Below are positions 7,265 through 28,351 of a stretch of 64,000 bases of DNA, piece by piece. The stretch covers positions 62,001 through 126,000 of the forward strand of contig NZ_CP100457.1 in assembly GCF_024228315.1 (NCBI RefSeq), written 5' to 3'. The translations under genes and the position numbers were made by a program. Position 1 is the first letter of the stretch; each line of letters starts with the position of its first letter. The notes beneath the pieces are model-generated. The model saw only the letters and a program-made list of their open reading frames with translations, did not search any database and was not told the origin of the DNA. Source of the stretch: Halomarina pelagica (GTDB taxonomy: Archaea; Halobacteriota; Halobacteria; Halobacteriales; Haloarculaceae).

Positions 7265-7621
7265 TCGCCCTTCACTCGCGGCCTTGTCTACATCCACCGA
7301 GGCGGAACTCCGGTCACGGCGTACCGCTCTGTTCGGGGAAGGCCCTCGATTCACTAATCCAGAGGGTGTTATAAACAGTTCACATTCTCGCTATTCGATA
7401 ACGGAAGAAGCGATAGACACAGAGAACTCACGTATCGCTCAATACAACGGAAGGATTATACGCCATAGTCTTATTGAATGAAAACACGAGGCTGAAGGAT
7501 GACCATTTCCGCTCTCTTATAAGTCGTCGCGTTCCCATTTCGGGGCCGCGAGAACCGTCTTTGTAACGATTAGAGCGGTGTGTCCGATTTCATCGCTCAC
7601 TGCGCCAAGCATCAGCGAAGT
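7265..7621. other. Intergenic region upstream of pepF
   Basis: There is no supported gene. A TATA-like tcttataagt at about 7515-7524 lies roughly 100 nt before the pepF ATG, implying a short leader if it is used. Another AT-rich run is at 7375-7385 (gttataaacag). Confidence 0.4.
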
Positions 7622-9433
7622 ATGAATCAATTACCGACACGAGCAGACATTGACGAGAAGTACAAGTGGGACCTCTCAGCCATCTTCGATTCCGTCGAAG
7701 AGTGGGAAAGTGAATGGTCAGCAGTTTATGACCGGCTCGGTGATCTCCGTGAATACGAGGGGCGCGTCGCGCAAGATGGCGAAGCGCTATTGCGTGCTCT
7801 CCAGTTGTTCGGAGAAGTCCTCCGTCGCACGCAGCGACTTCGACTCTACGCCCAATTGAAACGCAACGAGGACACCGAGAACAGCGCCCATCAGGAACGA
7901 CTCCACGAGTCAAATCGGTTAGACCGGGAGGTGACGAAGGTTACCGACATGGTGCGACGCGAGATACAGGCCACTGGCCGTGAGACAATCATGCAGGCGG
8001 TAGAGACGACTGAGGAGTTAGAGGTGTACAAGCATTTACTCGATGACGTGCTTCAGATGGGAAGTCGTGCACGATCCTCAGAGGTTGAGAACCTGCTGGC
8101 AGACTTCACCGAAGTCATCGAATCACCGACGCGTGTCTACTCCTCGCTCACGAACAACGACATCGAGCCACAGTCTGTGGAGACGCCCGGTGGAGAACAG
8201 GTCGAGGTGACTGGGGTCAATCTCGGGAACTATCTCCGCCATCGGGATCGCACCTTCCGTCGTCGTACCTATCAGTCGGTATACGAAGAATACGCCGCCG
8301 TAAAGCACACTATCGCGACTGCATACGCGGATAACGTGAAAGCGCAGGTTGCACTCGCGGACGCTCGAAGCTACGACTCAGTGCGGGAGATGGCGTTCAA
8401 TAAACCGAGCTACCCCGAAACCGGCCTGCATATTCACCTCCCTGTCGAGGTGCACGACACCTTGACAACCGCAGTCCGCGACTCGCTTGACCCACTGCAT
8501 CAATACTACGAGCGGCGAAAGGCAATCCTCGGACTCGACGAACTCAAAGCGTGGGACTTGGATGTTCCACTCGCTGACGCGCACGAACCGACTGTGGCAT
8601 ATGAGGAGGCACGAGACCACATCCTCACCGCAGTTGAACCACTCGGGGATTCGTACAAAAATCAGCTTGACGAGTTCTTCGCGTCCCAACGCATCGATGT
8701 CTATGAGACGCGAAACAAGCAGAATATTCTCGCGTATGGACCGTTGTCGTACGATACCGGGTCGTACATCCTGTTGAACTATCAGAACGACGTCCGTTCG
8801 ATGTCAATCCTCGCCCACGAACTTGGCCACGCGATGCACGCCGAGTACTTACGAGAGGCCCAGTCGCCCGCATACGCGACCGGGACGCGTCCTATCGAGG
8901 AAGTCCCGAGTTACGTCCACGAGATCTTGCTCGCGCATCACCTACTCAACGTGGACGACTATGCCCTCCGCCAGTATGCGCGTGACCGCTTGCTCGATGT
9001 GTTACTGGGTATATACGGCTCGACGCTACACTCGCTATTCACGCATAAGACGTATCGGACCGTCGAAGACGGGGAGGACCTCACGCTCGACCGCATCGAG
9101 GAGATATATACTGACCTCCTGTCCGAATTCCGTGGCCCGATGGAGATAGATACGTGGGCGAAACGAGGATGGCTTGTCGGCAGTCACGGACGACTACCCT
9201 ACCATTTCTATCAGTACACTCTTGGGACGGCTGGCGCACTACGCACCGTCGAACAGCTTCTCGACGGCACCGTCACACCGAATGAGTACCACGACTTCTT
9301 GCGAGCAGGTGGTACGGTACGTTCTGTCGAGGCATTCGAAACGCTCGGTCTCGACATCCAGTCACGAGAGCCGTTCGAACGGGCATGCTCAGTCGTCGAG
9401 AAATACGTGGAGGAACTGGGCGTGATTGAATAG
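7622..9433 (+). CDS. pepF: Oligoendopeptidase F, M3 family metallopeptidase
   Basis: A 603-residue zinc peptidase from ATG 7622, chosen because the paralogue at 29.6 kb begins the same way (MTQLKDRADI there, MNQLPTRADI here); a GTG at 7580 would add 14 residues. The zinc-binding HELGH lies at 399-403 in LAHELGHAMHAEY, and the third ligand Glu is in EEVPSYVHE about 25 residues later, as in the M3 family. The long helical N-terminal half and the YNHFYQY-like C-terminal segment (PYHFYQYTLG) also fit. The enzyme cleaves short peptides in the cytoplasm. It is monocistronic, with full family length and intact catalytic residues. Confidence 0.93.
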   Translation: MNQLPTRADIDEKYKWDLSAIFDSVEEWESEWSAVYDRLGDLREYEGRVAQDGEALLRALQLFGEVLRRTQRLRLYAQLKRNEDTENSAHQERLHESNRLDREVTKVTDMVRREIQATGRETIMQAVETTEELEVYKHLLDDVLQMGSRARSSEVENLLADFTEVIESPTRVYSSLTNNDIEPQSVETPGGEQVEVTGVNLGNYLRHRDRTFRRRTYQSVYEEYAAVKHTIATAYADNVKAQVALADARSYDSVREMAFNKPSYPETGLHIHLPVEVHDTLTTAVRDSLDPLHQYYERRKAILGLDELKAWDLDVPLADAHEPTVAYEEARDHILTAVEPLGDSYKNQLDEFFASQRIDVYETRNKQNILAYGPLSYDTGSYILLNYQNDVRSMSILAHELGHAMHAEYLREAQSPAYATGTRPIEEVPSYVHEILLAHHLLNVDDYALRQYARDRLLDVLLGIYGSTLHSLFTHKTYRTVEDGEDLTLDRIEEIYTDLLSEFRGPMEIDTWAKRGWLVGSHGRLPYHFYQYTLGTAGALRTVEQLLDGTVTPNEYHDFLRAGGTVRSVEAFETLGLDIQSREPFERACSVVEKYVEELGVIE

Positions 9434-14378: not shown

Positions 14379-14704
14379 AAAATTTAGAAAGCACCGAAAT
14401 TATTTAGTGAGGACCACTGTAAGTGATACTATGGCATGCTGTAGCCAAAATCGAATGAGGGGAGTGAGCTCTCTCCGTGACCACTGTGGTCTTTATCTTG
14501 CCATGCACAGCAGTCAACCGAATTTTCGGCACTCACCCCCCACCCCAATCCCCTCCCCAGCTACGACGATCCCTCGACGAGTCAGGTTACACACTAGTCC
14601 CCATTCAACGATGTTCGGCAGCCATCGACAGACGAACTACCCCCCGGCGTCTCGTCGAGGGCTGTCCGGGTGTGGGACGAATCGCAGCCATACGAGGGTG
14701 CTCG
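14379..14704 (+). other. Candidate transfer origin (oriT) upstream of the relaxase operon
   Basis: This 326-base non-coding stretch precedes the RHH-relaxase operon. A perfect 11-bp inverted repeat CCCTCGACGAG (14571-14581) / CTCGTCGAGGG (14651-14661) and a tight palindrome GACCACTGTGGTC (14479-14491) are present. GACCACTGT also occurs once upstream, near 14405. oriT regions commonly sit directly 5' of relaxase genes and contain such repeats. No nick site can be assigned from sequence. Confidence 0.45.
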
Positions 14705-15184
14705 ATGGCACGTGATGCCCCCCTCACCCTGTACGTCGAACAGGAGACGAAAGACCAGCTCCACCGGGAGGCCGACGACCGCGGGCTCTCCCTCTCTGCC
14801 TACTGTCACCAGCTGCTTGACCAGGCACGCAAGGAGGACGCACAGGAGGAGCTCGCCGAGGAATTGAACGCCGAACAGCGGCTTCGCGAGATCGCGACGA
14901 CCGCCACCGAGGAACTCCAGCAGACTGCCGCCGATATCCGAGATATGAATGCAAAGCTCGGCGTCTATGCCGTCGCCAACTGGGAACTGTTGAAGCAGGA
15001 GCATCCCGATTCGCTGCGTCAAGAGGCACTGCGAACAGGCCGTCGTCGACTCCGAACTCCGCTCGGTGACCACTCCGTCGACGTCGACCCTGATCCCACC
15101 ACAGATACCCCCGACAGCAATGCAGGTAGAGACACCGACGAGAGTACCACTGGAGACGACAACGTCTTCGATCGCCTAGAGTGA
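14705..15184 (+). CDS. Ribbon-helix-helix mobilization accessory protein (MobC-like)
   Basis: A 159-residue protein from ATG 14705. The N-terminus LTLYVEQETKDQLHREADDRG followed by SLSAYCHQLLDQAR is a ribbon-helix-helix DNA-binding motif. A long Glu-rich helical stretch (about 50-100) that could be a coiled coil follows, then a disordered Asp/Thr-rich tail. RHH proteins encoded just before a relaxase usually bind oriT and help relaxosome assembly. The stop codon touches the relaxase start (GTG at 15181, ATG at 15187), so the genes are probably translationally coupled. A plain transcriptional repressor is the alternative. Confidence 0.75.
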   Translation: MARDAPLTLYVEQETKDQLHREADDRGLSLSAYCHQLLDQARKEDAQEELAEELNAEQRLREIATTATEELQQTAADIRDMNAKLGVYAVANWELLKQEHPDSLRQEALRTGRRRLRTPLGDHSVDVDPDPTTDTPDSNAGRDTDESTTGDDNVFDRLE

Positions 15185-15186
15185 GT

Positions 15187-15705
15187 ATGGCTGCAGTACT
15201 GCAAACGACATACCGCGACGGCCGCGATGCGTCACGATTACTCGCGTATATCGAGCGCGACACCGCCCTCCGAAACCGGTTCGGCGACGCAATGTCTGAT
15301 CGTGACGTCCGAGCGTTCATCGAGAAGAGCAGACGCCACATGTTCGAGCGCGATATGATCCTATCCCCCGAGAACGGGCATCAGCTATCGAACGAGGAGT
15401 TTTCGCTCCATACCCGCCAAATCATGGGCGAGTTCCTCGAAGATCGTCCGACTGTCGACTACTGCTATGCGGTCCATCGCGACACTGACCACCCGCATGT
15501 CCACGTTGCGCTCACCGGCGAGCGTCGAGACTTGTACATGGACCGTGAGGATATCAGAGACGTCCGCGCGCTCACAAACGAACGGATGGTCGAACAACAC
15601 CGTGCACGTACCCAGGCACTCGACCAGGCGGTCACTCAGGCACAGGAGGACGAGCAGGAACAGGCGCACGATCGGGAGCGGGATCGCGATGGGTGGTCGC
15701 GATGA
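15187..15705 (+). CDS. HUH relaxase, VirD2-like, minimal size
   Basis: A 172-residue protein. The signature is HRDTDHPHVHV at about 97-107, the His triad of HUH relaxases (motif III). Upstream, RHMFERDMILSPENG matches the (I/V)-x-SPE motif of VirD2-type relaxases, and LLAYIERD (about 18-25) resembles their YIxR segment; Tyr21 is the best candidate nucleophile. The enzyme should nick oriT and lead DNA to the coupling protein. It lacks the long C-terminal domain of most relaxases, and its tail (130-172) is just a charged helix. Its stop overlaps the coupling-protein ATG. A GTG at 15181 is an alternative start. Confidence 0.82.
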   Translation: MAAVLQTTYRDGRDASRLLAYIERDTALRNRFGDAMSDRDVRAFIEKSRRHMFERDMILSPENGHQLSNEEFSLHTRQIMGEFLEDRPTVDYCYAVHRDTDHPHVHVALTGERRDLYMDREDIRDVRALTNERMVEQHRARTQALDQAVTQAQEDEQEQAHDRERDRDGWSR

Positions 15706-17267
15706 ACGTCCTCTCGACTGTAATCGCCTCCGTCACGCTCCTGGTACTCGTCGGTGCTGCCATCGAGTTCTTCTTCCGGATACGAGTACTCGCATGGCCA
15801 CGCCGGTGGCTGCATACGGCTGAACAAAGTATCGGGAAGCTACATCGATTCGCTATCTACCCGATCGTTCTCGTCGTCTCGACGCTGCTGTTTCTCGGCG
15901 GCGGACTCCTCGGCGAGTTCGTCGTCGGTCTCACGGGATTGACGCTCCCGTTCATCGCGAGTGGAGTCGCAGTGAAGCGTCGAGTGAGACGGAAGCTCAC
16001 TGAACGTGCGGCCAGGAAAGCCGATGAAATGGGATACCGACTTCCGATGGATGTCATTCGACAGAAGAACATCGGCTCGACCTATGGTGGCATCCTCGGG
16101 ATCTCCGACGAAGGGAGTATTCTCTGTCTCGGCGCGACGCGCTCCGGGAAGACAGAAGTCGGCAAGCACCTGCTTGCACAACTCCAGACCCAGCCGGATG
16201 AACCGATTGTTGTGTTCGACTACAAGACCGACTATCAGCAGTGCCTCAACGAGTGGGGCGCAGAAATCATCCGGCTTTCAGGGAGCGATTCGACGCACCG
16301 CTGGAACCTCTTTCGCGAGGCCGAAACCGAACGGGACTTCGACGAACTCGGACGGGCGCTGTTCCCCACCGATACCGGGAGCAGTCGAGGAAGTACGGAG
16401 TTCTTCTCGACGGCAGCGCGCCAGCTGTTCGTCGCGACGCTGAAGTACCTCGATCGGGAGGCAGCGGACGCGGGCAAGGTCCCGTCGAACGCGATGCTCG
16501 TTCGCTACTTCCAGCGAACGGACGCCAAGCAACTGTACGAGGATCTCACTTCGTACGAAGACCTCATTGGCGCCGCGTCGGCGATCGACCCCGATGCGTC
16601 GAAACAGGCCGCTGGTGTCTACGCAACGGTCCAGCAACGCGTCACGGACGTCTTTATCGACGATTTTGCGAAGAATGGTGAGTTCTCGATTCGAGAGTAT
16701 ATGGAGGATCCCCGCGGCCGAGTGCTGGTGCTTGACTTTCCGCAGCGATACGGGCAGGTCGTTACGCCCGTGTTCCGGTTTTTCCTCGACCGAGCGGCGA
16801 TGCACGCTCTCGCATCGCCGCAACGAGGTGGGTACTTCATTCTCGACGAAGTCGCACGAATTCCTGGCCTTCGTCGCATTGGCGATCTGGTCAACACCGG
16901 TGCCGGGCAGAGGACACAGGTCATTCTGACGCTCCAGTCGGTGAGCCAGTTGTACGACAGCTACGGGAAAGACCGCGGGACGGCAATCCTCTCGGGGTTG
17001 GTCACATCGGTCATTCTCCGGCTCTCTGATCCCGAGAGCATCCGGTACGCCCGGGCAATCATCGGGACCGAATTCGAAGAGTACACTCAACACGTCGAGA
17101 AACGGCCGTCTGCACTTGGCGAGCATCAGGTCGAAACGAGGCGCGAAACGAGAGAACAGGAGGAGCACCCGTTCGCGAAGGGGGAGTTCACGACGTTCGA
17201 TCCTGGCGTTGGGGTGGTTGTCCGCCCCGACGGCTGGGCACACGGCTACATCCCCATGCTCAGATAG
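15702..17267 (+). CDS. Type IV coupling protein, VirD4/TraD-like ATPase
   Basis: A 521-residue protein from ATG 15702 (ATGA overlap with the relaxase stop). Two hydrophobic N-terminal segments (about 4-22 and 52-90) anchor it in the membrane. Walker A GATRSGKT is at about 144-151 and Walker B GGYFILDEVARIPG near 375-390, followed by the conserved LTLQSVSQL. These are VirD4/TraG-type hexameric ATPases that bring the relaxosome to a secretion channel. With the relaxase and RHH protein it forms a compact three-gene mobilization operon. No VirB4, VirB6 or other channel gene lies in the window, so the channel must be elsewhere or supplied in trans. Confidence 0.9.
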   Translation: MNVLSTVIASVTLLVLVGAAIEFFFRIRVLAWPRRWLHTAEQSIGKLHRFAIYPIVLVVSTLLFLGGGLLGEFVVGLTGLTLPFIASGVAVKRRVRRKLTERAARKADEMGYRLPMDVIRQKNIGSTYGGILGISDEGSILCLGATRSGKTEVGKHLLAQLQTQPDEPIVVFDYKTDYQQCLNEWGAEIIRLSGSDSTHRWNLFREAETERDFDELGRALFPTDTGSSRGSTEFFSTAARQLFVATLKYLDREAADAGKVPSNAMLVRYFQRTDAKQLYEDLTSYEDLIGAASAIDPDASKQAAGVYATVQQRVTDVFIDDFAKNGEFSIREYMEDPRGRVLVLDFPQRYGQVVTPVFRFFLDRAAMHALASPQRGGYFILDEVARIPGLRRIGDLVNTGAGQRTQVILTLQSVSQLYDSYGKDRGTAILSGLVTSVILRLSDPESIRYARAIIGTEFEEYTQHVEKRPSALGEHQVETRRETREQEEHPFAKGEFTTFDPGVGVVVRPDGWAHGYIPMLR

Positions 17268-17532
17268 CTATCCTGAGAGATACGAGGGGGAACCGAGCGA
17301 AGGTGGGCATGCAGGCCTTGTTGAAACCCTCAATCGGTGATAGGTTGCAGGAGTCGTGGTAAATACAGGGCGCAAGTCGGTCACGTGCTCTGAGTAGTGG
17401 TCGCATTCTCGACCCGACCTATACACCTCAGTTGTTGTTTTCGCTGAATCAGCCCTAAGACTCGCGCACCAAGGCGAGGTAAGAACCGGCTGAACGCCGC
17501 GGTTTTTTGTCCTCGGAGAAAAAATTACAATT
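17268..17532. repeat. Gap with a lone IS5-type inverted-repeat end
   Basis: GGCCTTGTTGAAACCCTC at 17314-17331 resembles the left end of the IS at 12698 (GGCTCTGTTGAAATCCTC). No transposase follows and no matching right end was found nearby, so it looks like a solo end or deletion scar. The remainder contains the methyltransferase leader, with a T6 run (gcggttttttgtcc) near 17505 that may terminate the mobilization operon. Confidence 0.45.
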
Positions 17533-18312
17533 ATGTCAGAACGCCCGCCCTCAGACGATGATGAGCGAGACCGATGGGAAAGAGTTCTTTCGACTCGTAC
17601 CGAAGAGACGTTTCGAGACTTCGTATTCGAACAGGTGAGGCCGCGTAAAGATGAATCAGTCCTTTCGGTCGGATGTGGCCCCGGATTCGAGACGGCAGCC
17701 CTTGCACGGTACGTCGGGGAGGGCGGGACGATCACCGGCATTGACGTGAACGAAGAGGTGTTGGCCGCAGCGAGAGACCGGTGCGGGGACTTGCCGCAGG
17801 CGTCGTTTGAGCAGGGAGACATCGTTGACCTCCCGGTGGCAGACGAGAGCTACGACCTCGCTATCGCAAAACAGGTTCTGTATGCCGTCTCGGATATCGA
17901 AGCGGCGCTGAACGAACTCTTCCGCGTGATTGCACCGGGTGGCCGAGTAGCGGTCACGGCAGGAGATAGACGAACCCATGTGAAGCACACGCCGACCGAC
18001 CGGATGCAACGGGCCGACAACGTATATCGTGCCGAGATCAACCACTCGCAACTCGGGACGCGTCTTATTGGTCGGCTTCCTGAGGCGGGGTTCACGGTCG
18101 AAGAAGTCACGCCATGTGCAAAGATTCAGACTGAAATCGACGACCAGATAGAGCAAGGAATCGGTGTCCAACGTGGGCTTTTAGAGGCGAGTGATGCCTT
18201 CGACAGCGAAGCGATCGACGCGTGGGAGCAGGATATCAGGGAGCTCAACGAGACTGGCCAGTTCCTCTCCTGTTCCACTTCTTTCCTCTACGTCGCCCGG
18301 AAGCCCGAATAG
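17533..18312 (+). CDS. Class I methyltransferase, UbiE-like
   Basis: A 259-residue protein. SAM motif I is ESVLSVGCGPGFETAALARY (about 40-60), motif II GTITGIDVNEEVLAAAR, then FEQGDIVDLPVADESYDLAI and the post-motif ELFRVIAPGGRVAVTAGDRR. This is the UbiE/Methyltransf_11 pattern for small-molecule methylation. The C-terminal substrate domain (LPEAGFTVEEVTPCAKIQTE) is not diagnostic. The gene stands alone with an adenine-rich leader before the ATG; no neighbour hints at the acceptor. Confidence 0.88.
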   Translation: MSERPPSDDDERDRWERVLSTRTEETFRDFVFEQVRPRKDESVLSVGCGPGFETAALARYVGEGGTITGIDVNEEVLAAARDRCGDLPQASFEQGDIVDLPVADESYDLAIAKQVLYAVSDIEAALNELFRVIAPGGRVAVTAGDRRTHVKHTPTDRMQRADNVYRAEINHSQLGTRLIGRLPEAGFTVEEVTPCAKIQTEIDDQIEQGIGVQRGLLEASDAFDSEAIDAWEQDIRELNETGQFLSCSTSFLYVARKPE

Positions 18313-18620
18313 ACCGGCGCTTCTCGCGTTCGAATCGGCGATTAGGATCTCTCAGTGGGTCAGCGGGGGACAGTCGGCTTGCTGAATGTATTCTCTACAT
18401 CTTGCACGGTTTCCCGATCTCTTCTCGACATTTGCTCATAGGGCGTACAAGATACAGAGCGTAGATCCATCACAATGATCCACTCTATGACCTAGTCAAA
18501 GCGTAACCAGATGCCGCCAGTGTACGATCGGAAAAATAGCCAGCACCGAGAGCGTGTCAGAACGTTTCTCGTACCCTTTGAAGTGACCAAAATGAGCGAT
18601 GCCAGTCGTTCATCTAACAG
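18313..18620. other. Intergenic stretch with IS-like debris
   Basis: A segment beginning TTGCTGAATGTATTCTC (18378) and ending near tacagagcgtag (18464) resembles in layout the repeats at 20652 and 21296 (start with GCTGAAT, end with an ACAG-GCG motif). The similarity is weak and may only reflect related IS remnants. No gene is supported. Confidence 0.3.
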
Positions 18621-19295
18621 TTATCGTGCCACTCGGACAGTTCGTCTGAAAACGCCTGTAGTTCGTTTATTGTTTCTTGAAGCTTCTCTTGGGCCGCCTC
18701 CTCCCCCCTTGTAGGCGGTCATGGATTTGAGCCGGTTCTTCGTTGATTTCGTACAGCCATCTATCTCGTCGTACCAGTCGTATCCGTTTTGTTTCATCAA
18801 CGTATTGATGACAACCCAGAATCCGATTCCCTTGGGATTGTGGTCACCTTCGTCACCAACCATAGCAATCTGCTCGTCTAGCGCTTCGTACAGGTCTAGA
18901 CTCGTTTGAGTCAGGAGTGGCTTCAACCGCATGAACAGGTCGGCACCCCTCTTGCCGACATTATCGACTGCTTTCGAATACACGCTGTCGTATCCGATTT
19001 CCTCAAACGGTAGCACGCTCCACGACTCGATTGCCCCGTCTTCGACGAGGGAATCCCACCGATCACACTCCTCGTCGACGACGGTTTCGGGGTCGCCGTC
19101 GATCATCAGGAGAATCCGTCCTCCCTTGAAATACTCTATTCCGTGACGACCGTAGTGCCCGTTTCGCCAGAACCAACCCTTCTCGAAGGCTTCCATCGTT
19201 TCGAAGCGCTTCCAGGCGGATACGAGATAGTTCCTGATGAAGGATGCTTCCGCATCCGTGTCCTCCATTCGAAACGTGACCTGAACTGTAGACAT
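18621..19295 (-). CDS. Hypothetical protein, function unknown
   Basis: A 224-residue protein starting MSTVQVTFRMEDTD. It begins with a strand and a helix (RNYLVSAWKRFETMEAF), continues with GRHGIEYFKGGRILLMIDGD, then an acidic helical part rich in Trp and Asp. The last 35 residues are basic and Gly/Arg-rich (KGGGGGPREASRNNKR), unlike the acidic body, so the original stop may have been lost. An AT-rich gaaaatatatcag element lies about 25-35 nt upstream. I do not recognise the family. Confidence 0.55.
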   Translation of the reverse strand: MSTVQVTFRMEDTDAEASFIRNYLVSAWKRFETMEAFEKGWFWRNGHYGRHGIEYFKGGRILLMIDGDPETVVDEECDRWDSLVEDGAIESWSVLPFEEIGYDSVYSKAVDNVGKRGADLFMRLKPLLTQTSLDLYEALDEQIAMVGDEGDHNPKGIGFWVVINTLMKQNGYDWYDEIDGCTKSTKNRLKSMTAYKGGGGGPREASRNNKRTTGVFRRTVRVAR

Positions 19296-19496
19296 GCCTC
19301 GACTGTGCTCCCTAGTTCTGATATATTTTCTGTAGACATAAGTACAAGAACTAACTGACCCGAGGCATGAAATTGTCGCTGATATACTCGCACGCTCTAT
19401 CTATCAGCTGATTCGCTGAAGGACAGGGTGAACACAATCTCCTGAGGATGATTCTACGACACGCTCAGCACCTGTAGCGACCGCATCGCCGTTTGG

Positions 19497-19856
19497 CTAC
19501 TGAATCACTGCCGGACGGTCGCGCTGGCCAGCGTGAAAGAGACACTCACACTCACTGACGGCACTGTGAAAGTCGATATTGAGAGCCTCTTCCATCACCT
19601 CCCGAGACTCAGCAATCAAGGCATCTGTCGCTTCCTCGTAGGTCTCCCACGCTTTCTCTATGTCCGGCGTCTCCATATACCAGAGTAGATAGCTCACGTC
19701 AGGCCCTTCTTCGAGGAAAATTGACTCTGTCAACATCTCCTCCCGCTGGAGGATATCTGCTACCTCCGACTCCCGGTTTTTCGCTTCCGAAAACAACTTA
19801 CGGAGGTCGTTAATCCGGTCACTCGGTATTTCGTACCGCAGCAGTATCACGTCCAT
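19497..19856 (-). CDS. DUF6176-like protein
   Basis: A 119-residue protein. The strand VILLRYEIPSDRINDLRKLF, a charged helix with ESEVADILQREE, then ESIFLEEGPDVSYLLWYMETPD and a helix with EKAWETYE follow the ferredoxin-like pattern of DUF6176, a small haloarchaeal and bacterial family of unknown function with a dimeric alpha/beta barrel character. The C-terminal ECECLFHAGQRDRP is consistent. It is divergent from the HTH_10 regulator, sharing an 84-bp intergenic promoter, and may be that regulator's target. Confidence 0.72.
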   Translation of the reverse strand: MDVILLRYEIPSDRINDLRKLFSEAKNRESEVADILQREEMLTESIFLEEGPDVSYLLWYMETPDIEKAWETYEEATDALIAESREVMEEALNIDFHSAVSECECLFHAGQRDRPAVIQ

Positions 19857-19910
19857 TACACGTGATGAGACGGCCGGAGTCCGAGTGAGCGTTGTGTGGA
19901 ATATGCTAGG

Positions 19911-19920
19911 TTATTTATTA
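19911..19920 (+). promoter_or_regulatory. TATA box of the HTH_10 regulator
   Basis: The string ttatttatta lies 21-30 nt upstream of the ATG at 19941, as expected for a leaderless transcript. It sits in the divergent intergenic region shared with the DUF6176-like gene. Confidence 0.6.
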
Positions 19921-19940
19921 GTAGTGCTCCGACACCTCGT

Positions 19941-20594
19941 ATGCGGTTCGTCCGAGTTACCCTCACAAGCCCACGGGAAACACAGCATCAGATGCAACGC
20001 TTCGTCGAGGAGTCGGACGCGGTTCGGCGAGAGCAGAACTTGGGGGTGTCGAACCTCCCCGATTCGAGATGGGCGCATCTCTATTATGTTGAGGGGGAGA
20101 TCGAAGCCTACCGTGCGATGTTGGAGCAACAGGAGACGGTCGAGTATTTCGATTTGAACCCTATTGAGGCACGCTCGTTCTGCGCGTACGTCGTTTTTCG
20201 GAAGCGACCAACGGACGAACGATTCGCCGAGGCGTTCGAGAAACACGGGGTCGTAGTCGTTTCGCCCGTAGAGACGGACAGAACGGGAGCGAAATTCACC
20301 CTCGTTGGCCCACAAGAAGCGCTTCAGGCACTGCTGGAGGACATCCCCGAGGACTTGGACACTGAGATCTTGCAAGTGGGGGAGTTCAATCACCACCACG
20401 GGGCCCTTGCCGGGCGACTAACGTCTCGCCAGCGTGAGGCGGTCAGCGCCGCACTGGCTGTGGAGTACTACGGTGTGCCCCATGACGCGACGCTCGCTGA
20501 CGTTGCCGACGAGCTCGGGTGTACCGTCGGGACAGCCTCCACCCTTCTGAGACGGGCGGAACGAGCAGTAATGGAAGCTGTCGTCGTGGGATAG
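19941..20594 (+). CDS. HTH_10 (Bat-like) transcription regulator
   Basis: A 217-residue protein from ATG 19941, chosen because of the TATA box 21-30 nt upstream. The N-terminal 150 residues form an alpha/beta sensor-like domain typical of haloarchaeal Bat-type regulators without PAS or GAF. The C-terminal LTSRQREAVSAALAVEYYG, then ATLADVADELGCTVGTASTLLRRAE is the HTH_10 domain. Such proteins are single-gene regulators, often controlling an adjacent target; the divergent DUF6176-like gene is the obvious candidate. The ligand is unknown. Confidence 0.87.
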   Translation: MRFVRVTLTSPRETQHQMQRFVEESDAVRREQNLGVSNLPDSRWAHLYYVEGEIEAYRAMLEQQETVEYFDLNPIEARSFCAYVVFRKRPTDERFAEAFEKHGVVVVSPVETDRTGAKFTLVGPQEALQALLEDIPEDLDTEILQVGEFNHHHGALAGRLTSRQREAVSAALAVEYYGVPHDATLADVADELGCTVGTASTLLRRAERAVMEAVVVG

Positions 20595-20651
20595 TCTCGT
20601 CCTCTCCGAACGGATTCAGATCGGTTGGCATAGGCGGGGAACCGATCTGTC

Positions 20652-20742
20652 GCTGAATATATCCGCTGTAGTCAGCATGCAAATTTCTGATAGCGGTTAG
20701 GGGATTTTTCGTACCCTTGCTGAATACAGAACGCGTATTTCG
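20652..20742 (+). repeat. Direct repeat of about 90 bp, copy 1
   Basis: It starts GCTGAATATATCCGCTGTAG and runs through TCAGCATGCAAATTTCTGAT, AGCGGTTAGGGG, CCCTTGCTG and ACAGAACGCGTA. Most positions match the copy at 21296, and both lie on either side of the DUF1428 gene. The first 27 bases contain a GCTGA/TCAGC inverted repeat. No gene is seen in 20595-20835 otherwise. Probably insertion-element relics. Confidence 0.7.
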
Positions 20743-20835
20743 CACGGTCAGGAGTTGCGGATCCGCCGTTACTGGACGCCGAACCGGTATACTACTATCG
20801 CGACACAAGCCGATCTTCACCGCTAGTTTCGTTCG

Positions 20836-21216
20836 TCAATTTTCGTAGCTGACGATGGAACGGAAGCCGCCATACGCCATGCGCTTCGTATCGAAGGGCA
20901 TCTCCTCATCGAAGTTCTCCGAATCCATCGCGGGATCTTCCATCACCTTCGCGTTCACCTCGTCGCGGTGGTCCCGCGACTCAAACACGATAAACGAGAA
21001 CACGACCGTTTCGTCCTCTCCGGTTTCGGCGAGCTGTGGGAAGGTTCGAATCGGCATGCCGTCCATGTCGGGCTCCATGTCGTCGCCGACCCCTTCGAAA
21101 TACTCGAGAGCGCCGTGTTCGATCCAGAGCTGTCCGGCCTCGCTGGCCATCTCACGGTACGCATCGAGCTCATCGGTCGGGATCGGGATAACGAATCCAT
21201 CGACGTATCGTTCCAT
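20836..21216 (-). CDS. DUF1428 family protein
   Basis: A 126-residue protein. YVDGFVIPIPTDELDAYREMA, an A-x2-W-x2-HGALEYFE motif, DETVVFSFIVFESRDHRDEV and a C-terminal PFDTKRMAYGGFRSIV are the hallmarks of DUF1428, a dimeric ferredoxin-like family common in bacteria and haloarchaea. Its biochemical role is unknown. Length and motifs are complete. Two copies of a 90-bp direct repeat flank the gene at 94 and 80 bases, so it may have moved as a unit. Confidence 0.9.
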   Translation of the reverse strand: MERYVDGFVIPIPTDELDAYREMASEAGQLWIEHGALEYFEGVGDDMEPDMDGMPIRTFPQLAETGEDETVVFSFIVFESRDHRDEVNAKVMEDPAMDSENFDEEMPFDTKRMAYGGFRSIVSYEN

Positions 21217-21295
21217 ACCCTACGTGGTAGGACGCGACAGGAATTGAACGTTATTCCCACTTACCGCGATTTATCTCAGCAATTGATTTTGCCCT

Positions 21296-21386
21296 GCTGA
21301 ATATACCCACTGTAGTCAGCATGCAATTTCTGATAGCGGTTGGGGGAATTTGCAGTGCCCTTGCTGCAGACAGGGCGCATAGTTAG
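21296..21386 (+). repeat. Direct repeat of about 90 bp, copy 2
   Basis: This is the second copy of the repeat at 20652, in the same orientation: GCTGAATATACCCACTGTAG, then TCAGCATGCAATTTCTGATA, GCGGTTGGGGGAA, CCCTTGCTG and ACAGGGCGCATA. Its first 27 bases hold a TGCTGA/TCAGCA inverted repeat. The copies differ by scattered substitutions and a few short indels. Confidence 0.7.
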
Positions 21387-21442
21387 CAGCAAGAATCGGA
21401 TGGCTGGAGATAAATTAGGTCGGTCTGTGTCGGCCCCCATCG

Positions 21443-21892
21443 TTACAGATCCAATTCATCGAACGCCCGCTCGGGAGGTCGGGGGTTTGCGTTCAGTTCC
21501 CACTCAACGTCGTACCTGTCGAGAAAGACTCGGTGGTGGGGAGCGTTCTCCTCTACGTTGCACCCGAGCGAGTCGGCACGTTCAGTGATTTCGTCAAATG
21601 CTTCGTCATCGACAGCCAGCGCAATGTGGTCGAGTCGGCCAGTTCCCTGTTGGTCCGATATGTCGGCAACTGCCATGTAGAACTCATCTCGCCCAAGAAA
21701 CGACATATACGGTGTAACTCCTCTATTGATGGCCTCCTCCCAAGAAACGTCGTCTGGAACGGTTCCAGGGTCACCATCAATCCCTGCCTCGCGGAATAGC
21801 ACTGCAAGGTCGAACAGTTCCCTGTAATATGATTCACCGTCCGGAACATCATCCACCGACAGAACGAGATGATGGACACCGTTGACGTACAT
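21443..21892 (-). CDS. VOC (glyoxalase-type) family protein
   Basis: A 149-residue protein from ATG 21892 (MYVNGVHHLVLSVDDVPDGE). The fold consists of two beta-alpha-beta-beta-beta modules: GVHHLVLSVDD with SYYRELFDL, and GRLDHIALAVDDEAFDEI. His in HHLVL and LDHIALAV and the late YDVEWEL could supply metal ligands. Members include glyoxalases, extradiol dioxygenases and fosfomycin-resistance proteins; the specific activity cannot be chosen. It is a stand-alone gene. Confidence 0.87.
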   Translation of the reverse strand: MYVNGVHHLVLSVDDVPDGESYYRELFDLAVLFREAGIDGDPGTVPDDVSWEEAINRGVTPYMSFLGRDEFYMAVADISDQQGTGRLDHIALAVDDEAFDEITERADSLGCNVEENAPHHRVFLDRYDVEWELNANPRPPERAFDELDL

Positions 21893-22081
21893 GCATTCGG
21901 TTAATCGATAAAGCACATAGGTCTATAGTCAATCTACTCTTGAGCTACACCCCTCTCAATCAATTCACCGCGATTCTGAGGACGAAGAAATCGGTCCGTG
22001 CTGAATCCATCCTCTCTATGCAGCACCCAATTCCTACCAGATATTGGTCATTTTAACAGAGCTAATTCGGTGATCAGTGCT

Positions 22082-22996
22082 CTAAACCTGTTCAACCGCC
22101 TCAAGAACACCGTCTCGAAGCTTCTGAGCGTGTTCCCTGGTCTCCTCTGGTCCGTGCTGATCCTGTACGTACAGCGACTCAAAGTAGTAGACCCCGTTCA
22201 AGATCGTATAGAGCGGTTTTCGGCGTTCGAATCCCGATGAGAGTGAACGGACGGATTCGTACCCTGCTCGGAACGCCTCTCCTGAGGCGTCACAGTCACG
22301 ACCGAACGTCGGAAGCCCCGTCCGCCAGTAGTCGAATTCACCCGGCGCAGCGATCGCATGCTCGAAGTCCACCATACAGGCAACTTGCTCGTCGACAACG
22401 GTGACGTGCTCAGGCGTCGCCCAACCGTGGCAGCAAACAGGGCCATCTGCGCCACTGAACACGCTTGGGTGGTCCTTCAGAAACTCTAGGACCATATCTG
22501 CGACATCAGCGTGTCCATGTTGGGCAAGCGTCGGACGGTACTGGTGGACGTACGCAAGAGCGGCCGCATGCCAGTCATCATCCTCAGCGACCACGGTTCC
22601 GTTAACCGACGGCCGAAATCGACCGTACCGATCAATTAACGGGTCGGTTTCGTTGTGCAGTGTTGCTAAGCCCCGTCCCGCGGCGTAGGCCCACGTTTCG
22701 TCGGCCTGCCCTCCTTCGTCAGGCGCTGGAGCATTCGGATGCCACGCAGCAACGTAGTAGCCGTCTCCGACCAGTAGTATCTCAGGTACAGGTACCGACG
22801 TCTGATCGCCAACGAACGCGATCACATGCCCCTCGAGTGTTGCTTTCCCCGTTGGACCGGTATTACCCTTGTAGACAGCACGCTGGCCATCCACGAAGAC
22901 TTCGTAGACCTCGTGAGGCGGTACGTCGTGAAGCTGGCGCACAATGCTGTGGGTAGTAAACTGCGCTGCGAGTGTGTCGTGGACGTCTCGTTTCAT
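22082..22996 (-). CDS. Aminoglycoside phosphotransferase-like kinase fold protein
   Basis: A 304-residue protein from ATG 22996 (MKRDVHDTLAAQF). An N-lobe with RAVYKGNTGPTGKATLEGHV supplies the ATP-binding Lys, and a C-lobe has VCCHGWATPEHVTVVDEQVA then MVDFEHAIAAPGEFDYWR. In canonical APH enzymes the first of these reads HGD-x4-N with a catalytic Asp; here Trp and His stand at those positions, while the later metal-binding Asp (VDFE) is kept. It is either a haloarchaeal subfamily with altered chemistry or an inactive kinase. Antibiotic resistance should not be assumed. Confidence 0.82.
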   Translation of the reverse strand: MKRDVHDTLAAQFTTHSIVRQLHDVPPHEVYEVFVDGQRAVYKGNTGPTGKATLEGHVIAFVGDQTSVPVPEILLVGDGYYVAAWHPNAPAPDEGGQADETWAYAAGRGLATLHNETDPLIDRYGRFRPSVNGTVVAEDDDWHAAALAYVHQYRPTLAQHGHADVADMVLEFLKDHPSVFSGADGPVCCHGWATPEHVTVVDEQVACMVDFEHAIAAPGEFDYWRTGLPTFGRDCDASGEAFRAGYESVRSLSSGFERRKPLYTILNGVYYFESLYVQDQHGPEETREHAQKLRDGVLEAVEQV

Positions 22997-23175
22997 ACTA
23001 TGGCCACCGCGTGACGAGCGGCGATCGGCCGTAGTGAGTGCTGTAGCTACGGCCGAGAGAAGACAGACGAAAGGTAGGGGCAGCTTCAAATAAGCACTTC
23101 GACTCACCTGAATGAGTCCTCGTTAGAAAAATTATGGATATTGTTCTCCGTATCCAATGCATGAGTATAGCGCTG

Positions 23176-23216
23176 ATTAACCAACAGCGGCCTCGATAAC
23201 ACACATTGTTGGTTAA
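23176..23216. repeat. Long inverted repeat, copy 2 of 4
   Basis: Arms TTAACCAACA (23177-23186) and TGTTGGTTAA (23207-23216) match perfectly around a 20-bp spacer. It lies about 220 bp upstream of the RHH-PIN toxin-antitoxin operon and 180 bp from the divergent phosphotransferase gene. Confidence 0.85.
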
Positions 23217-23415
23217 ACGCTCGCTGAATGTTCTTCTCCACAATCGCTGCCGGTCATATCCAGCGCCAAGAGCCCATGTCTCCCAGGGAGGAGTCGGAGG
23301 GCTGTCTTATGAACGGTCGAAGTGGAAGATAAAGAACGTGGGCCTTCCACTAGTCGTTATTTTCGTACCCGTCAACTGACTGGTGGTCTACTCCCGGAGA
23401 AGCCTTTTTGCGTCT

Positions 23416-23434
23416 GTGGGTACAACGTACCCAC
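23416..23434 (+). promoter_or_regulatory. Operator palindrome of the RHH-PIN operon
   Basis: Perfect 8-bp arms GTGGGTAC and GTACCCAC surround a 3-bp centre (aac), ending 3 bases before the antitoxin ATG. RHH antitoxins typically bind such short palindromes at their own promoters. Confidence 0.75.
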
Positions 23435-23437
23435 AGT

Positions 23438-23740
23438 ATGAGTACCCGAAAAGTCAACTTCCGGCTCCCAGAGGACCTGGTGACGCATGCGGATATAGCC
23501 GCAGAAGTCACCCATAAAAACCGAACTGAACTCCTAATCGAAGCCCTGCGCGAGTACCTCGAAGAAATCGAATCGAGCGAGCGTTTTCAAGAGGCAGTCG
23601 TTGAACTCTACCTTCAAGACGAACTCGAGTTTGAATCGCTTAGCAAGATTATCGGTCGCCAGGACGCAGAAGCAGTCCGGACGTCGAAGCAGCTCCTCGA
23701 TCAAGGCGATGCCCTCGCTGACAAACTTGCGGATCGCTGA
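23438..23740 (+). CDS. RHH antitoxin (VapB-like)
   Basis: A 100-residue protein from ATG 23438. The N-terminus TRKVNFRLPEDLVTHADIAA followed by HKNRTELLIEALREYLEE is a ribbon-helix-helix domain. The acidic, helical C-terminus (about 50-100) is suited to wrap a toxin. Its stop codon is followed at once by the PIN gene ATG (23741), and a perfect palindrome sits at its start, the standard arrangement of an autoregulated type II antitoxin. Confidence 0.85.
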   Translation: MSTRKVNFRLPEDLVTHADIAAEVTHKNRTELLIEALREYLEEIESSERFQEAVVELYLQDELEFESLSKIIGRQDAEAVRTSKQLLDQGDALADKLADR

Positions 23741-24256
23741 ATGCTGGTCATCGACACAAGCGCGTTCATTTCTCTCGCAATCGGTGATGTCCTTGATGAT
23801 GTACTCGCCGAATTTGACGTCGTGACAACGGCACTCGTCATCGACGAACTCGAAACGACCGCAGAATACGACGATGTGCATGGCCGCGGGGCCACAGCCG
23901 TTCTCGAACGCGCTGATTGCTTCGAGATTCTGGAGCTTCCTGCCCCAGCGTTTTCGTCGAGTCAGATCGATGCTGGCGAAGCGAGTTGTGTCGCCGCTGT
24001 TGAAGAGATCGACGCCCCATTTCTCATTACGGACGATTTTCGAGCACTTCCAGAACTCACCACATTGCTGTCTGCCGATGTGGCGCTATCACCTATCCTC
24101 CTCCGAGCACTCGTCAAACGAGAGGTGCTTACAGAGGCCGAGGCGCACTCCGCGCTCAACACTATTGCGCAGGGTCGAGACTGGCTTGGTGCGCCGATCT
24201 ACCGCTATGCACAACGGCTCTTCGACGAGACAGAGACGTCATCAACCGAACCGTGA
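23741..24256 (+). CDS. PIN-domain toxin (VapC-like)
   Basis: A 171-residue protein. MLVIDTSAFISLAIGDV gives the first Asp, TTALVIDELETTAEYDD the Glu, AGEASCVAAVEE the third acidic position, and APFLITDDFRAL the paired Asp residues, so the PIN active site is complete. The C-terminal extension (about 120-171) resembles a family of haloarchaeal DUF3368-like PIN proteins with LTEAEAHSALNTIAQGRDW. It presumably cleaves RNA when freed from the RHH partner upstream, to which it is directly adjacent. Confidence 0.85.
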   Translation: MLVIDTSAFISLAIGDVLDDVLAEFDVVTTALVIDELETTAEYDDVHGRGATAVLERADCFEILELPAPAFSSSQIDAGEASCVAAVEEIDAPFLITDDFRALPELTTLLSADVALSPILLRALVKREVLTEAEAHSALNTIAQGRDWLGAPIYRYAQRLFDETETSSTEP

Positions 24257-24521
24257 CTGTTGAAGAACAATCACGACGAGAACCAGGAACCGATCGGTGT
24301 CGGTCACTCCCTTACGGACTGCGTTCGCTGCACGGGATCGAAGCTGAGTAGATTGCATTGGGTGCCACGTCTGTACGCAGAACTAATCTCAGTCCTCGGG
24401 GACAGTTCACTTCGCATCGATAGAGCGAAAGCCCGGCGCGCGGAGCGCGCCCGGACCGTGGAGGCGGGTGGGGCGGTCGGGGATGGGTGGTCTGGCACGG
24501 CAAAAAAGAGTGGTACGTCGC
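24257..24521 (-). terminator. Terminator region between the convergent PIN and TFB genes
   Basis: An A6 run on the + strand at 24502-24507 reads as T6 on the - strand, about 15 bases past the TFB stop codon, and follows GC-rich sequence, a typical archaeal terminator. The rest of the gap is GC-rich and non-coding. Confidence 0.5.
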
Positions 24522-25598
24522 TCAGTGCAGTTGGACGCGCCCGCGCTCAAGGACGGCTGCCGGATCGTCCGTCCCATGCGTGGCCACGTAGGCGTCGTAC
24601 AGTGCCTGGGAGTATCGACTAATGCGGCTCTTGGTGGTGTCGAGAATCGTCCGTCCGGCGGTGACCACCTCCGCCTGGGTCAGCGTCTTCCCGTCGGTGA
24701 GCCGGTCAGCTGCGTAGACGGCCGCCGCCGCCATCGTCAGCCGCGACGTTCCCGGTCCAACTGGCGTCTCGTCAGCGATCTCCAAGAGGTGCTCGCCCAG
24801 CCGTCGAAGCTCCAGACACGTTTTCACGTCCGGCGCATCCTCACCGAGTGCTGCAACCACCGCGTCGACGGGGGCCGCCCGCACCGGCGGTACATCCAGA
24901 CCGAGTGCACACCGCAGCTTCCGCGCTGCTGCGCACACTCGCTCGCGGTCCGCCTTCGCGTACTGGGTCACTTCCACGTCGGATCGCGGAACGCCCGCAT
25001 CGATCGCAGCGAGCAGCACCGCGCCCGCGGCGAGTGCTTCCCAGGACATCCGCCCACCGGGAAGCCGCGCCGCAGCCGCCTGTTTGAGGATCAACCCCGC
25101 ATCCTCGGCCACGTAGCCGGGGAGGGACAGATTACCAGTGATCGACTCGATGTCTCGGAAGCCCTCGTTGAGCCGGATGGCCCGCTTGTCCTCGACTTGG
25201 AAGCGCTTGTGCCGCCGCCGCAACCGACCGAACTTGTCTTTCTGCTCGCTCGACAGTGCCCGTCCGTAGCCGTCAGTGCCGAGGAAGAACGTCGTATGCA
25301 GGCCCTTGTCCACCCGCAGCGGATTGATCGACTCACAGCTCCACTCTGCCGGACCACTCCCCTCGGACGGCCCGTGCACGCCGCGCGTCGGCCGGTGATC
25401 GACATGCTCCGCAGAGACCACGAGCCCACAATCCACGCAGTAGGACTCCTGATCGCCGGTGACGACCTGTCCATCGCACTCGAGACACGTCGACTGCCAC
25501 GTTGGCTCGTGCTCGACGACCGCCTGGCTGTGCTCCTCGTCATGTTTTGTTCCCTGTTCAACCGAAGATTCATACCGCACAAAGTTCGTACTCGACAT
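24522..25598 (-). CDS. tfb: Transcription initiation factor TFB (TFIIB-like), divergent
   Basis: A 358-residue protein from ATG 25598. A zinc ribbon lies at about 38-62 (CLECDGQ and CVDCGLVV). A B-reader-like linker (VDHRPTRGVHGPSEGSG, with a P-L-R-x-D-K-G-L-H-T-T-F segment in place of the usual D-R-G-L-S-T) precedes two cyclin-like repeats. TFB recruits RNA polymerase to TATA-bound TBP; haloarchaea keep several TFB paralogues with different regulons. The cyclin repeats are Ala-rich and divergent, typical of plasmid-encoded copies. A poly-T terminator follows the stop. Confidence 0.85.
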   Translation of the reverse strand: MSSTNFVRYESSVEQGTKHDEEHSQAVVEHEPTWQSTCLECDGQVVTGDQESYCVDCGLVVSAEHVDHRPTRGVHGPSEGSGPAEWSCESINPLRVDKGLHTTFFLGTDGYGRALSSEQKDKFGRLRRRHKRFQVEDKRAIRLNEGFRDIESITGNLSLPGYVAEDAGLILKQAAAARLPGGRMSWEALAAGAVLLAAIDAGVPRSDVEVTQYAKADRERVCAAARKLRCALGLDVPPVRAAPVDAVVAALGEDAPDVKTCLELRRLGEHLLEIADETPVGPGTSRLTMAAAAVYAADRLTDGKTLTQAEVVTAGRTILDTTKSRISRYSQALYDAYVATHGTDDPAAVLERGRVQLH

Positions 25599-26142
25599 GG
25601 GTTCCAAACCCGAAGGCGCTCACTCGGCGTCTTCTTCCGACACTACGACTCTCCAGCCGTAGCTCTCGACAACGACCAACTCACCTACGACGCGCGCTCG
25701 CTCGCGCCTTCGCGAGCGCCCTGTGGGCGCGAGCGAGCGCGCCTCGAGGAGCACAGTCAACCAGCCCCGCGCGCCGTCCGCCCGGAGCGAGCGACCAGCG
25801 GAGTACGCGTGGGGGGTGAGCACCGACCGGAGCGCAACCCCTCGCGGGTACCCGCTGGCGTCGAAACCAGACGCCCGGACCGGTGAGCGACGTGAGGAGC
25901 GAACCGCAGCCCGGAATGGTCGGTCGCGAGCGAAGCGAGGCGCGACCGCAGGGAGCGCCTCGACGCGAGCGGTGAACGAAGTGAACCGCGAGCAAGCGGA
26001 GGGCGGCATGCGGCGAGTGGGGCGGGCCGTAACGACTCATCTTAATTTGATATCAACGCACAGCGACCCAGCCACCATTATGGCGGACTCAAAATGGGAA
26101 GTTATGTGAAGGGAACTGGGCTTCATATGAAGCCACATGAAT
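25599..26142. repeat. Non-coding GC-rich region with dispersed 196-bp repeat, copy A
   Basis: From 25833 to about 26031 the sequence GCAACCCCTCGCGGGTACCC onward, with ACCAGACGCCCGGACCGG and a GGCATGCGGCGAG end, matches 35099-35295 over nearly its whole length. The first 70 bases are identical. Codons in every frame are Arg/Ser/Ala-rich and I see no real protein. Many short palindromes such as GAGCGAAGCGAG occur in the flank. Confidence 0.75.
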
Positions 26143-26628
26143 TTACTGCGCTGTTTTGTCTTCCGCTCCTACCCTAGATGTGAATGAAATTCTCGGGACA
26201 ATGCCGTTATAGGAATTCTCAAGCAGTTCACCGATTGGATCAAGGATATATTGAAGGATTCCTGATTCAAGATGATCTCTAAATTTCTGGTCTGCATCCT
26301 GGTATTCCTCAGTGGTGATCCACTCGTCAACGTAGGGCACAAACGTGGCCATCTCCCCCGGGATATGGATAATAAACTCGGTGTCTACTGTCCCAAACCG
26401 CTCTTCTGCTTTCTCTTCATCTACTTGCCATGGTGCCTTCCCATTGTGAAAGAGATGTAATGAGAGGCTTGCCTCACACTGGAACCCTTCCGGATCCTCC
26501 TCAAAGATGGGTGGCTCAACCTGGAGGTTACTCCCAAGAACCCCAATGACCGTCTCACCGACGGTTGGAGAGACGTCAATATCGACTGATTTCAAATAGT
26601 ACTCTGGAAGTTCGAAGCTTGGAATCAT
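26143..26628 (-). CDS. Unknown protein coupled to a winged-HTH gene
   Basis: A 161-residue acidic protein whose ATG overlaps the stop of the upstream HTH gene (ATGA). The first 95 residues look like a run of beta strands (YYLKSVDIDVSP, VIGVLGSNLQVEPPIFEED, CEASLSLHLFHN, TEFIIHIPG). A helix (about 110-140) and a final strand NGIVPRISFTSRV follow. This strand-then-helix order and length are reminiscent of SecB-like chaperones, which occur in some toxin-antitoxin-chaperone modules, but I see no decisive motif. Function unknown; the pairing with a regulator is clear. Confidence 0.6.
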   Translation of the reverse strand: MIPSFELPEYYLKSVDIDVSPTVGETVIGVLGSNLQVEPPIFEEDPEGFQCEASLSLHLFHNGKAPWQVDEEKAEERFGTVDTEFIIHIPGEMATFVPYVDEWITTEEYQDADQKFRDHLESGILQYILDPIGELLENSYNGIVPRISFTSRVGAEDKTAQ

Positions 26629-27104
26629 TGATCCGGTATTGGAGCAGGCTCATCGTCCTCGGAGCGGCTCAGACCAAGGTCAACAGGGGCTTCGACAGCT
26701 ACTGGCCCATATTCTTGATTGTGTATGTTTTCAACCTGCTCGTAGTGAAATCGGGGTGTGAAGCTATCAACCGAGCCAAGGGAGTTGAGAAGGCAATCAA
26801 CAAACCGCTCCCCATACTCGCTCACTTCGTAATAGGATCGGACTTGCTCACCAGCAGTATCAGCAACACGCTTGTCTACTAAGCCGCCCTCTTGGAGTGC
26901 TTCGAGTGCATTCGTAAGCGTCTGATTGTGGAGCTGCTCGTCTTCATCACTCAGCGAGTCACGAAGCTCCGAGAAACGCAACTTACCCTCATTGAGGAGT
27001 GTGATCATGATCGCTTGTCGCGTCCCATTATCGAATGCACTGACTGCAGCTCTGATCTCAAATGGGAGTTTGTCAGCCGTGTTGCGTACCGTATGCGTCG
27101 TCAT
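26625..27104 (-). CDS. Winged-HTH DNA-binding protein
   Basis: A 159-residue protein from ATG 27104; a TTG two codons earlier is possible. A winged helix occupies about 15-95: FDNGTRQAIMITLLNEGKLRFSELRDSL, a recognition helix within HNQTLTNALEALQEGGLV, and a wing with VRSYYEVSEYGERFV. The pattern is ArsR/PadR-like. The C-terminal tail (100-159) carries SVDSFTPRFHYEQVENIH and an acidic end. It is the first gene of a two-gene operon and divergent from the Rossmann-like gene at 27268, suggesting shared control of a 163-bp promoter region. Confidence 0.75.
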   Translation of the reverse strand: MTTHTVRNTADKLPFEIRAAVSAFDNGTRQAIMITLLNEGKLRFSELRDSLSDEDEQLHNQTLTNALEALQEGGLVDKRVADTAGEQVRSYYEVSEYGERFVDCLLNSLGSVDSFTPRFHYEQVENIHNQEYGPVAVEAPVDLGLSRSEDDEPAPIPDQ

Positions 27105-27267
27105 TGTCAATCTAGATTGACTGGACCGTCTTAGTTCTTAGGCCATGGATCCCCCGATCAGATCCAAGCCGGCCCACTTGCCTCGTACTGGGCCACTCTA
27201 TCCAGTCAAATGTACTTGACCCACAACCTTAAAGATAGCGGCGATCCATTGTCGACTGTCAACGTAA

Positions 27268-27972: not shown

Positions 27973-28351
27973 ATGGCATTTCGATTTCTCATAATCGGGT
28001 TTGTCTATTGGTTCTGTAGGCACTGTTTAGTTACGAGATATCGGTAGGGAGGGGGAGGCCGGCGGTCTGCTCCAGGAAGCCCTTGCGCGCCGGTCGGGGG
28101 CCGGTGTACGCCGCGCTCGCTGGCGCTCGCGCAGTGCGTGCGTCGGCCGCCTTCCCCAGAATACTCGTCCTTCCAGTCTGCCAAGAGCAGGGCTGATCGG
28201 ACGGTTGCCGCTTATCTAGACAGTGCCATGCATGGTAATATACAGATCTTACTAAGTGTTCAGAGACAATTCGCAGACGAGAGAATGTCAGAGAGTCCCT
28301 GCATGAACGAGACGTACGCAATGACCACTCAAGAACGATACGGTAGAGAAG
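27973..28351. other. Intergenic stretch, GC-rich then AT-rich
   Basis: No gene is supported. A GC-rich segment (28040-28150, with gcgctcgctggcgctcgcgc) is followed by AT-rich DNA. It may carry the end of the Rossmann-like gene's transcript and the terminator of the VapBC operon. Confidence 0.4.

Follow-up and report, generated by a model that had tools for sequence, protein, structure and literature searches.

The window, by which we mean the whole analysed stretch of 64,000 nucleotides (bases 62001-126000 of the 144,667-bp contig C4, in a haloarchaeal genome of 4.6 Mb and seven contigs), carries three consecutive plus-strand open reading frames that form a single operon and encode an RHH protein, an HUH relaxase and a coupling ATPase (T4CP), with a candidate origin of transfer (oriT) in the intergenic region before them (Table 1). 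Contig C4 is most likely a plasmid, since it bears an Orc1/Cdc6 gene (2604-3614) as well as, at the right edge, a ParA-like ORF. An initial annotation of this DNA had proposed a mobilization module of these three genes, and the reading frames are indeed where it placed them, with identities backed by profile matches and by 55 homologous cassettes of the same order. Starting from the ATG at 15187, the relaxase is 172 residues long, as it had been described, and the motifs Y21-IER, SPENG and HRDTDHPHVH are all found. The start/stop overlaps claimed for the genes are exact at one junction only: relaxase and T4CP genes share 4 bp (ATGA at 15702), and the RHH stop codon (15182-15184) ends 2 nt before the relaxase ATG, although the use of a GTG at 15181 as an alternative relaxase start would produce a 4-bp GTGA overlap there as well.

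Table 1. Features of the mobilization cassette and its candidate oriT, in window coordinates; the slash marks the predicted nick.
Feature	Position	Strand	Basis
Direct repeat GACCACTGT	14412-14420, second copy 14479-14487	+	Repeat search; RHH binding site possible, binding inferred
Palindrome GACCACTGTGGTC, which may form the oriT hairpin recognised by the relaxase	14479-14491	+	Sequence, repeats; ssDNA hairpin only weak (z -1.75)
Candidate nic site TTTATCTTG/CC, with the nick predicted 3' of G14500	14492-14502	+	Sole motif match in window; conserved near clusters
RHH (NikA-like) relaxosome accessory protein, 159 aa	14705-15184	+	NikA-like profile E 3e-4 (below cut-off); gene in 55/55 cassettes
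MOBP-type HUH relaxase, 172 aa, catalytic domain only (Tyr21; His97, His104, His106)	15187-15705	+	PF03432, fold, conservation
VirD4/TrwB-type coupling protein (T4CP), 521 aa, Walker A GATRSGKT	15702-17267	+	TrwB_AAD_bind, TraG-D_C, TrwB structures

Relaxase, RHH protein and coupling protein

The relaxase matched the Pfam profile PF03432 (Relaxase) with 29.8 bits, where 24.6 are required, so that the failure of relaxase profiles, which would have counted against the original proposal, did not occur. Its best NCBIfam match was MobP1 (NF041450, a model of 321 positions), which was partial and, at 28.2 bits, did not reach the curated cut-off of 200 bits, and a Rep-type profile, REP_ORF2-G2P, matched weakly (E 0.016). 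DUF3363 was not matched in the profile search, which places the protein outside the DUF3363/RlxS subfamily; it is a relaxase of the PF03432/MOBP kind. A sequence search of the PDB with the relaxase as query returned no relaxase among its matches. Against an AlphaFold2 model built from 8 sequences (pLDDT 75, pTM 0.65), the six chains with the highest Z scores were all relaxases, namely MobA of R1162 (9.8 over 133 residues), TrwC (9.4), NES (9.2) and MobM (8.0-7.2), compared with 7.0 and less for unrelated folds and 6.8 for one viral Rep structure; Foldseek by itself placed only MobA at the top, with an E value of 0.05. The alignment took in residues 1-143 of the 172, so that the protein consists of little more than a relaxase domain.

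Across 51 different relaxases of the family, Y21, P61, Y94, H97 and L116 are invariant, and the two remaining histidines of the triad are retained in most (H104 in 45, otherwise D; H106 in 46, otherwise Q). The features expected of a motif I catalytic tyrosine (Tyr21) and a motif III metal site (the His triad) are thus present, and their catalytic roles are inferred from them. The family is under purifying selection (dN/dS 0.06-0.20 in the 14 computable pairs), a result that comes from other members; selection on the window's own copy was not computed because its nearest relative is only about 50% identical.

The RHH protein, whose profile match to NikA-like proteins is subthreshold, was modelled with helices at residues 13-25 and 30-99. 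The coupling protein exceeded the cut-offs of both TrwB_AAD_bind (132 bits, E 3e-38) and TraG-D_C (54 bits, E 2e-14), and matched TrwB chains in the PDB at 5e-12. Hydrophobic stretches can be seen by eye in its first 90 residues (no membrane-anchor predictor was used).

A predicted nick site

Side-by-side reading of the regions upstream of the cassettes brought out a motif, seen at first as TTTA[AT]C[CT]TGCC, which in the window lies directly 3' of the palindrome and 205 nt upstream of the RHH gene. In the form TTTWDCYTGCC it matches the 64 kb window once (0.10 expected), and the broader TTTWDCYTGYC occurs at 6 places in the 4.6 Mb genome, among which the site of Table 1 is the sole TTTATCTTGCC. 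A second nic-like match at position 38671 of contig C4 lies inside a TFB gene and was judged a chance occurrence; ACCACAGT, the first candidate from a k-mer search, was discarded, its enrichment being mostly due to related loci.

When the relaxases were clustered at 70% identity (n=18), TTT[AG]NCYTGYC was found adjoining the cassette in 14 clusters, always on the relaxase (+) strand and never on the opposite one, compared with 0.175 clusters (at most 2) in dinucleotide shuffles of one representative each. The constant core is C[CT]TG[CT]C, and the sites fall in one of two places, some 200 nt ahead of the RHH start or some 300 nt past the end of the T4CP gene. In Haloarcula operons, most of which were not in the set in which the motif was first noticed, it follows the T4CP stop codon at a distance of about 300-360 nt, with conserved repeats (AAATCGCAAGACGGCG) nearby. 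The strict motif is missing in 4 of the 18 clusters, and was for example not found near loci L104 and L113; one group (L021) has a related motif farther behind the T4CP gene, two loci (L015 and L026) carry the variant TTTAAACTTGCC or similar, and at L089 the site is disrupted.

MOBP relaxases have a described nick consensus, (C/T)ATCCTG(C/T), with an inverted repeat 5' of it (PMC3772185). The window's TATCTTGC departs from this by one base, a T for the consensus C, and has the palindrome adjacent; nicking there has not been shown. A closely similar sequence, TTT[AG]TCTTGC, lies 138-299 nt before the relaxase gene in 4 of 10 bacterial DUF3363/RlxS loci (Xanthomonas, Dyella, Pseudomonas and Phycisphaera), but on the strand opposite to the haloarchaeal one; in the related ICEMlSymR7A, an rdfS-traF-msi107 operon has been described as upstream of oriT and rlxS (PMC11963761). 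We take the conserved, oriented motif to be the nick site of the relaxase, which remains an inference until the nick is mapped. The weak hairpin of the window, the T for C and the four clusters without the strict motif count against it, and the motif might instead be a promoter or other regulatory element of a cassette that is still a mobilization module. Its TTTAWN part does resemble haloarchaeal TATA boxes, but the part held constant is C[CT]TG[CT]C, a single orientation is kept, the distances to the RHH start or T4CP stop do not suit a promoter, and a near-identical motif precedes bacterial relaxase genes on the other strand; we therefore regard a regulatory role as rather unlikely, without dropping it altogether.

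Distribution and gene order of the cassette

The cassette family is present in 33 of 391 Halobacteria genomes and 11 of 86 sampled genera. PF03432 matches were found in 28 of these 391 genomes, all of them among the 33, and 13 of 14 family members match the profile. A tblastn search of plasmid records recovered about 20 haloarchaeal plasmids together with many bacterial DUF3363 relaxases; a closer subset of the relaxases as query gave 11 related loci, 2 of them bacterial, and no relatives were found in IMG/VR or in phage records. Among the 55 distinct cassettes, the RHH gene stands upstream of the relaxase gene in every case and the T4CP gene downstream in 53, contrary to the outcome, a relaxase always found without a coupling ATPase, that had been named as refuting the proposal. 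With profiles matching, catalytic residues conserved and this ATPase adjacent, its reading as a relaxase and coupling set is upheld. In one genome (G073, contig 33, 10983-13055; locus L109) relaxase and T4CP are naturally fused into one 690-aa ORF, in which the motifs are kept and the last histidine of the triad is Q; the fusion was not found in the nine congeners searched. Two plasmid records, NZ_CP119995.1 (L015) and NZ_CP085343.1 (L017), look like multimer assemblies, built of repeated units of about 16.35 kb and 10.7 kb respectively, which inflates the copy counts in them.

An unrooted tree separated 24 haloarchaeal rows from 10 bacterial DUF3363 relaxases by a 100/100 branch. The bacterial DUF3363/RlxS and TraG systems, known from IncP-like plasmids, Tn4371-type elements and Mesorhizobium ICEs and with RlxS typed as MOBP1 (PMC8627217), share the Y and HxxTDxPHxH motifs with the haloarchaeal proteins and, in most loci read, the placing of the relaxase gene directly before the coupling-protein gene. 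They differ in size and architecture: the bacterial proteins have 561-720 aa, end in a DUF3363 region and are in most cases also extended at the N terminus, whereas the haloarchaeal ones, of about 170-260 aa, carry no more than a charged tail, and the haloarchaeal RHH gene stands where the bacterial loci have traF/transglycosylase neighbours.

The window's genome holds a second RHH-relaxase-T4CP cassette, closest to one on a Halomarina plasmid, on the 16.7 kb contig C7 (= L026, 1-16726) together with phage head genes (terminase, likely portal and capsid). This element is possibly a phage-plasmid or a capsid-bearing mobilizable element.

Channel genes

VirB4 accompanies 30 of the 55 cassettes (counted up to about 12 kb upstream and 7 kb downstream), and the 25 without it in range include some near contig ends. 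Searching the whole genome with the VirB4 of pNG500 gave a single place, on contig C5 (21171-24067, split over two frames), and no VirB4 was found on contig C4, which thus does not qualify as a self-transmissible plasmid. This agrees with the earlier report of no channel genes in 64 kb, which holds for the window's plasmid but not for the organism: contig C5 has a T4SS-like cluster (17064-28503) of a small possible pilin, a TrbL/VirB6-like protein (over cut-off), VirB4 and an ATPase of 1465 aa that matches TraG-D_C weakly. Neither a relaxase nor the nic-like motif was found on C5. Mobilization in trans may be inferred as possible from these VirB6/VirB4-like genes and has not been shown; because C5 encodes its own T4CP-like ATPase, a match between its channel and the C4 cassette is only conjectural.

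VirB4 was detected in 32 of the 33 relaxase-positive genomes vs 221 of the other 358 (Fisher p 1e-5, uncorrected for kinship and dominated by one genus), and for cassettes without their own VirB4 the presence of one elsewhere in the genome gave p 0.06 in a hand count that ignored phylogeny. Such VirB4 in trans is weak evidence, since VirB4 is common anyway (253/391 Halobacteria genomes). Across the same survey, in which only 28 genomes have a PF03432 relaxase, most haloarchaeal T4SS-like loci are without a recognisable relaxase.

The description of the module as minimal fits this channel-less plasmid but cannot be extended to the family, as Haloarcula conjugation operons end in the same three genes. 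In pNG500 of Haloarcula marismortui and its relatives, the RHH-relaxase-T4CP order is the same and the nic-like motif lies about 300 nt behind the T4CP gene, but the cassette there closes an operon of a pilin (with a T4SS_pilin match just below cut-off), a large protein, two further ORFs, VirB4 and another NikA-like ORF, which the window's plasmid lacks. Our cassette could accordingly be the inactive, decayed remnant of a conjugation operon that has lost its channel genes. It is found in only one of five genomes of the genus, and damaged cassettes do exist (the frameshifted T4CP gene of L018 and the disrupted site of L089); however, the window keeps three intact ORFs with catalytic motifs and a nic-like site, cassettes without VirB4 in range are frequent, and the family is under purifying selection. 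Moreover, cassette-bearing, VirB4-less plasmids from several haloarchaeal families (Haloarchaeobius, Haloferax, Halobellus and Haloarcula JP-L23) share stretches 92-97% identical over kilobases, near-identities that, at the level of sequence, indicate recent movement and not its mechanism. A remnant is hence an account to which we give little credence.

Discussion

We consider it highly probable that the haloarchaeal plasmid has at this locus a MOBP-type DNA-mobilization cassette, working as set out below, although no nicking or transfer has been shown. Gene identities, fold, conservation of catalytic residues, gene order, the oriented nic-like motif and purifying selection on the family were established by computation; nicking, the exact position of the nick, ssDNA transfer and the channel used are inferred. 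The RHH protein would bind the intergenic oriT, and the relaxase would nick the plus strand at the candidate nic site by means of Tyr21, with a metal held by His97, His104 and His106, and stay attached to the resulting 5' end. The coupling ATPase would then deliver the relaxase with its bound ssDNA to a type IV channel, which must be supplied from elsewhere because the window's plasmid has no VirB4, plausibly from the T4SS that the same cell encodes on contig C5 or from a co-resident conjugative plasmid of the Haloarcula type. That the HUH protein might instead initiate rolling-circle replication, with the ATPase as a replication or segregation partner, carries very little weight: relaxases and Reps do have a common catalytic core, which the weak Rep matches reflect, but relaxase profiles and structures rank clearly higher, a TrwB-type ATPase is nearly always adjacent and once fused, VirB4 is nearby in 30/55, and the replicon already has an Orc1/Cdc6 gene.

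Bacterial mobilizable plasmids of the CloDF13 type likewise encode a relaxase and their own T4CP without a channel, and depend on that of a helper. The window's plasmid resembles them in this, but its relaxase is domain-only, its setting is an archaeal envelope, and there is no functional test. The conjugative plasmids of Sulfolobus (pNOB8-type) and Thermococcus (pT33-3) also have a VirD4-like ATPase, but they carry their own VirB4 and no recognised relaxase (PMC12857230), the reverse of the window's plasmid, where a relaxase is found and VirB4 was not found on the contig.

The initial annotation had suggested a little-studied class, which must be qualified, as parts of the family had already been noticed: Guglielmini et al. 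(2011) counted a single conjugative plasmid among haloarchaea, pNG500, and proposed that archaea have relaxases still unknown (PMC3158045), and MOBP profile matches have been counted in a haloarchaea-dominated lake plasmidome (PMC8563766). We found no paper describing the relaxase family, its gene order or its oriT, in a search that did not extend to subscription journals and preprints. What is new here is the conserved, oriented nic-like motif, and with it a haloarchaeal variant of MOBP mobilization whose nick site can be predicted. The presence of such a relaxase family, with a coupling protein and a predicted nick, contrasts with statements that relaxase homologues are not known in archaea (2023; PMC9905601) and that archaeal conjugative plasmids have no identified relaxase (2025 T4SS review; PMC12857230), accounts that propose other ways of making the transferred strand. 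It is possible, though we advance this only tentatively, that the haloarchaeal proteins are a single clade of domain-only MOBP relaxases whose nick site is recognisably the same in bacteria, and that channel-less plasmids with their own T4CP travel as ssDNA through archaeal T4SSs that lack a relaxase, such as that of C5; if so, classical relaxase chemistry would be usable by archaeal conjugation across unrelated channels. The predicted nick site provides a directly testable oligonucleotide substrate, and the family offers a means of typing haloarchaeal plasmids, which PLSDB's MOB-suite mostly calls non-mobilizable, and might open the way to genetic tools for haloarchaea that rest on conjugation.

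Other genes of the plasmid

Outside the cassette, the window contains a PIN-toxin/AbrB-like antitoxin pair (28352-29082, minus strand), 73.5% identical in DNA to a pair just upstream of the cassette in the JP-L23 and Haloarchaeobius plasmids. An IS605 OrfB/TnpB-type protein with a Cas12f1-like TNB domain is encoded at 58576-59805 (minus strand), and the same plasmid has two M3-family oligopeptidase genes (7580-9433 and 29583-31385).
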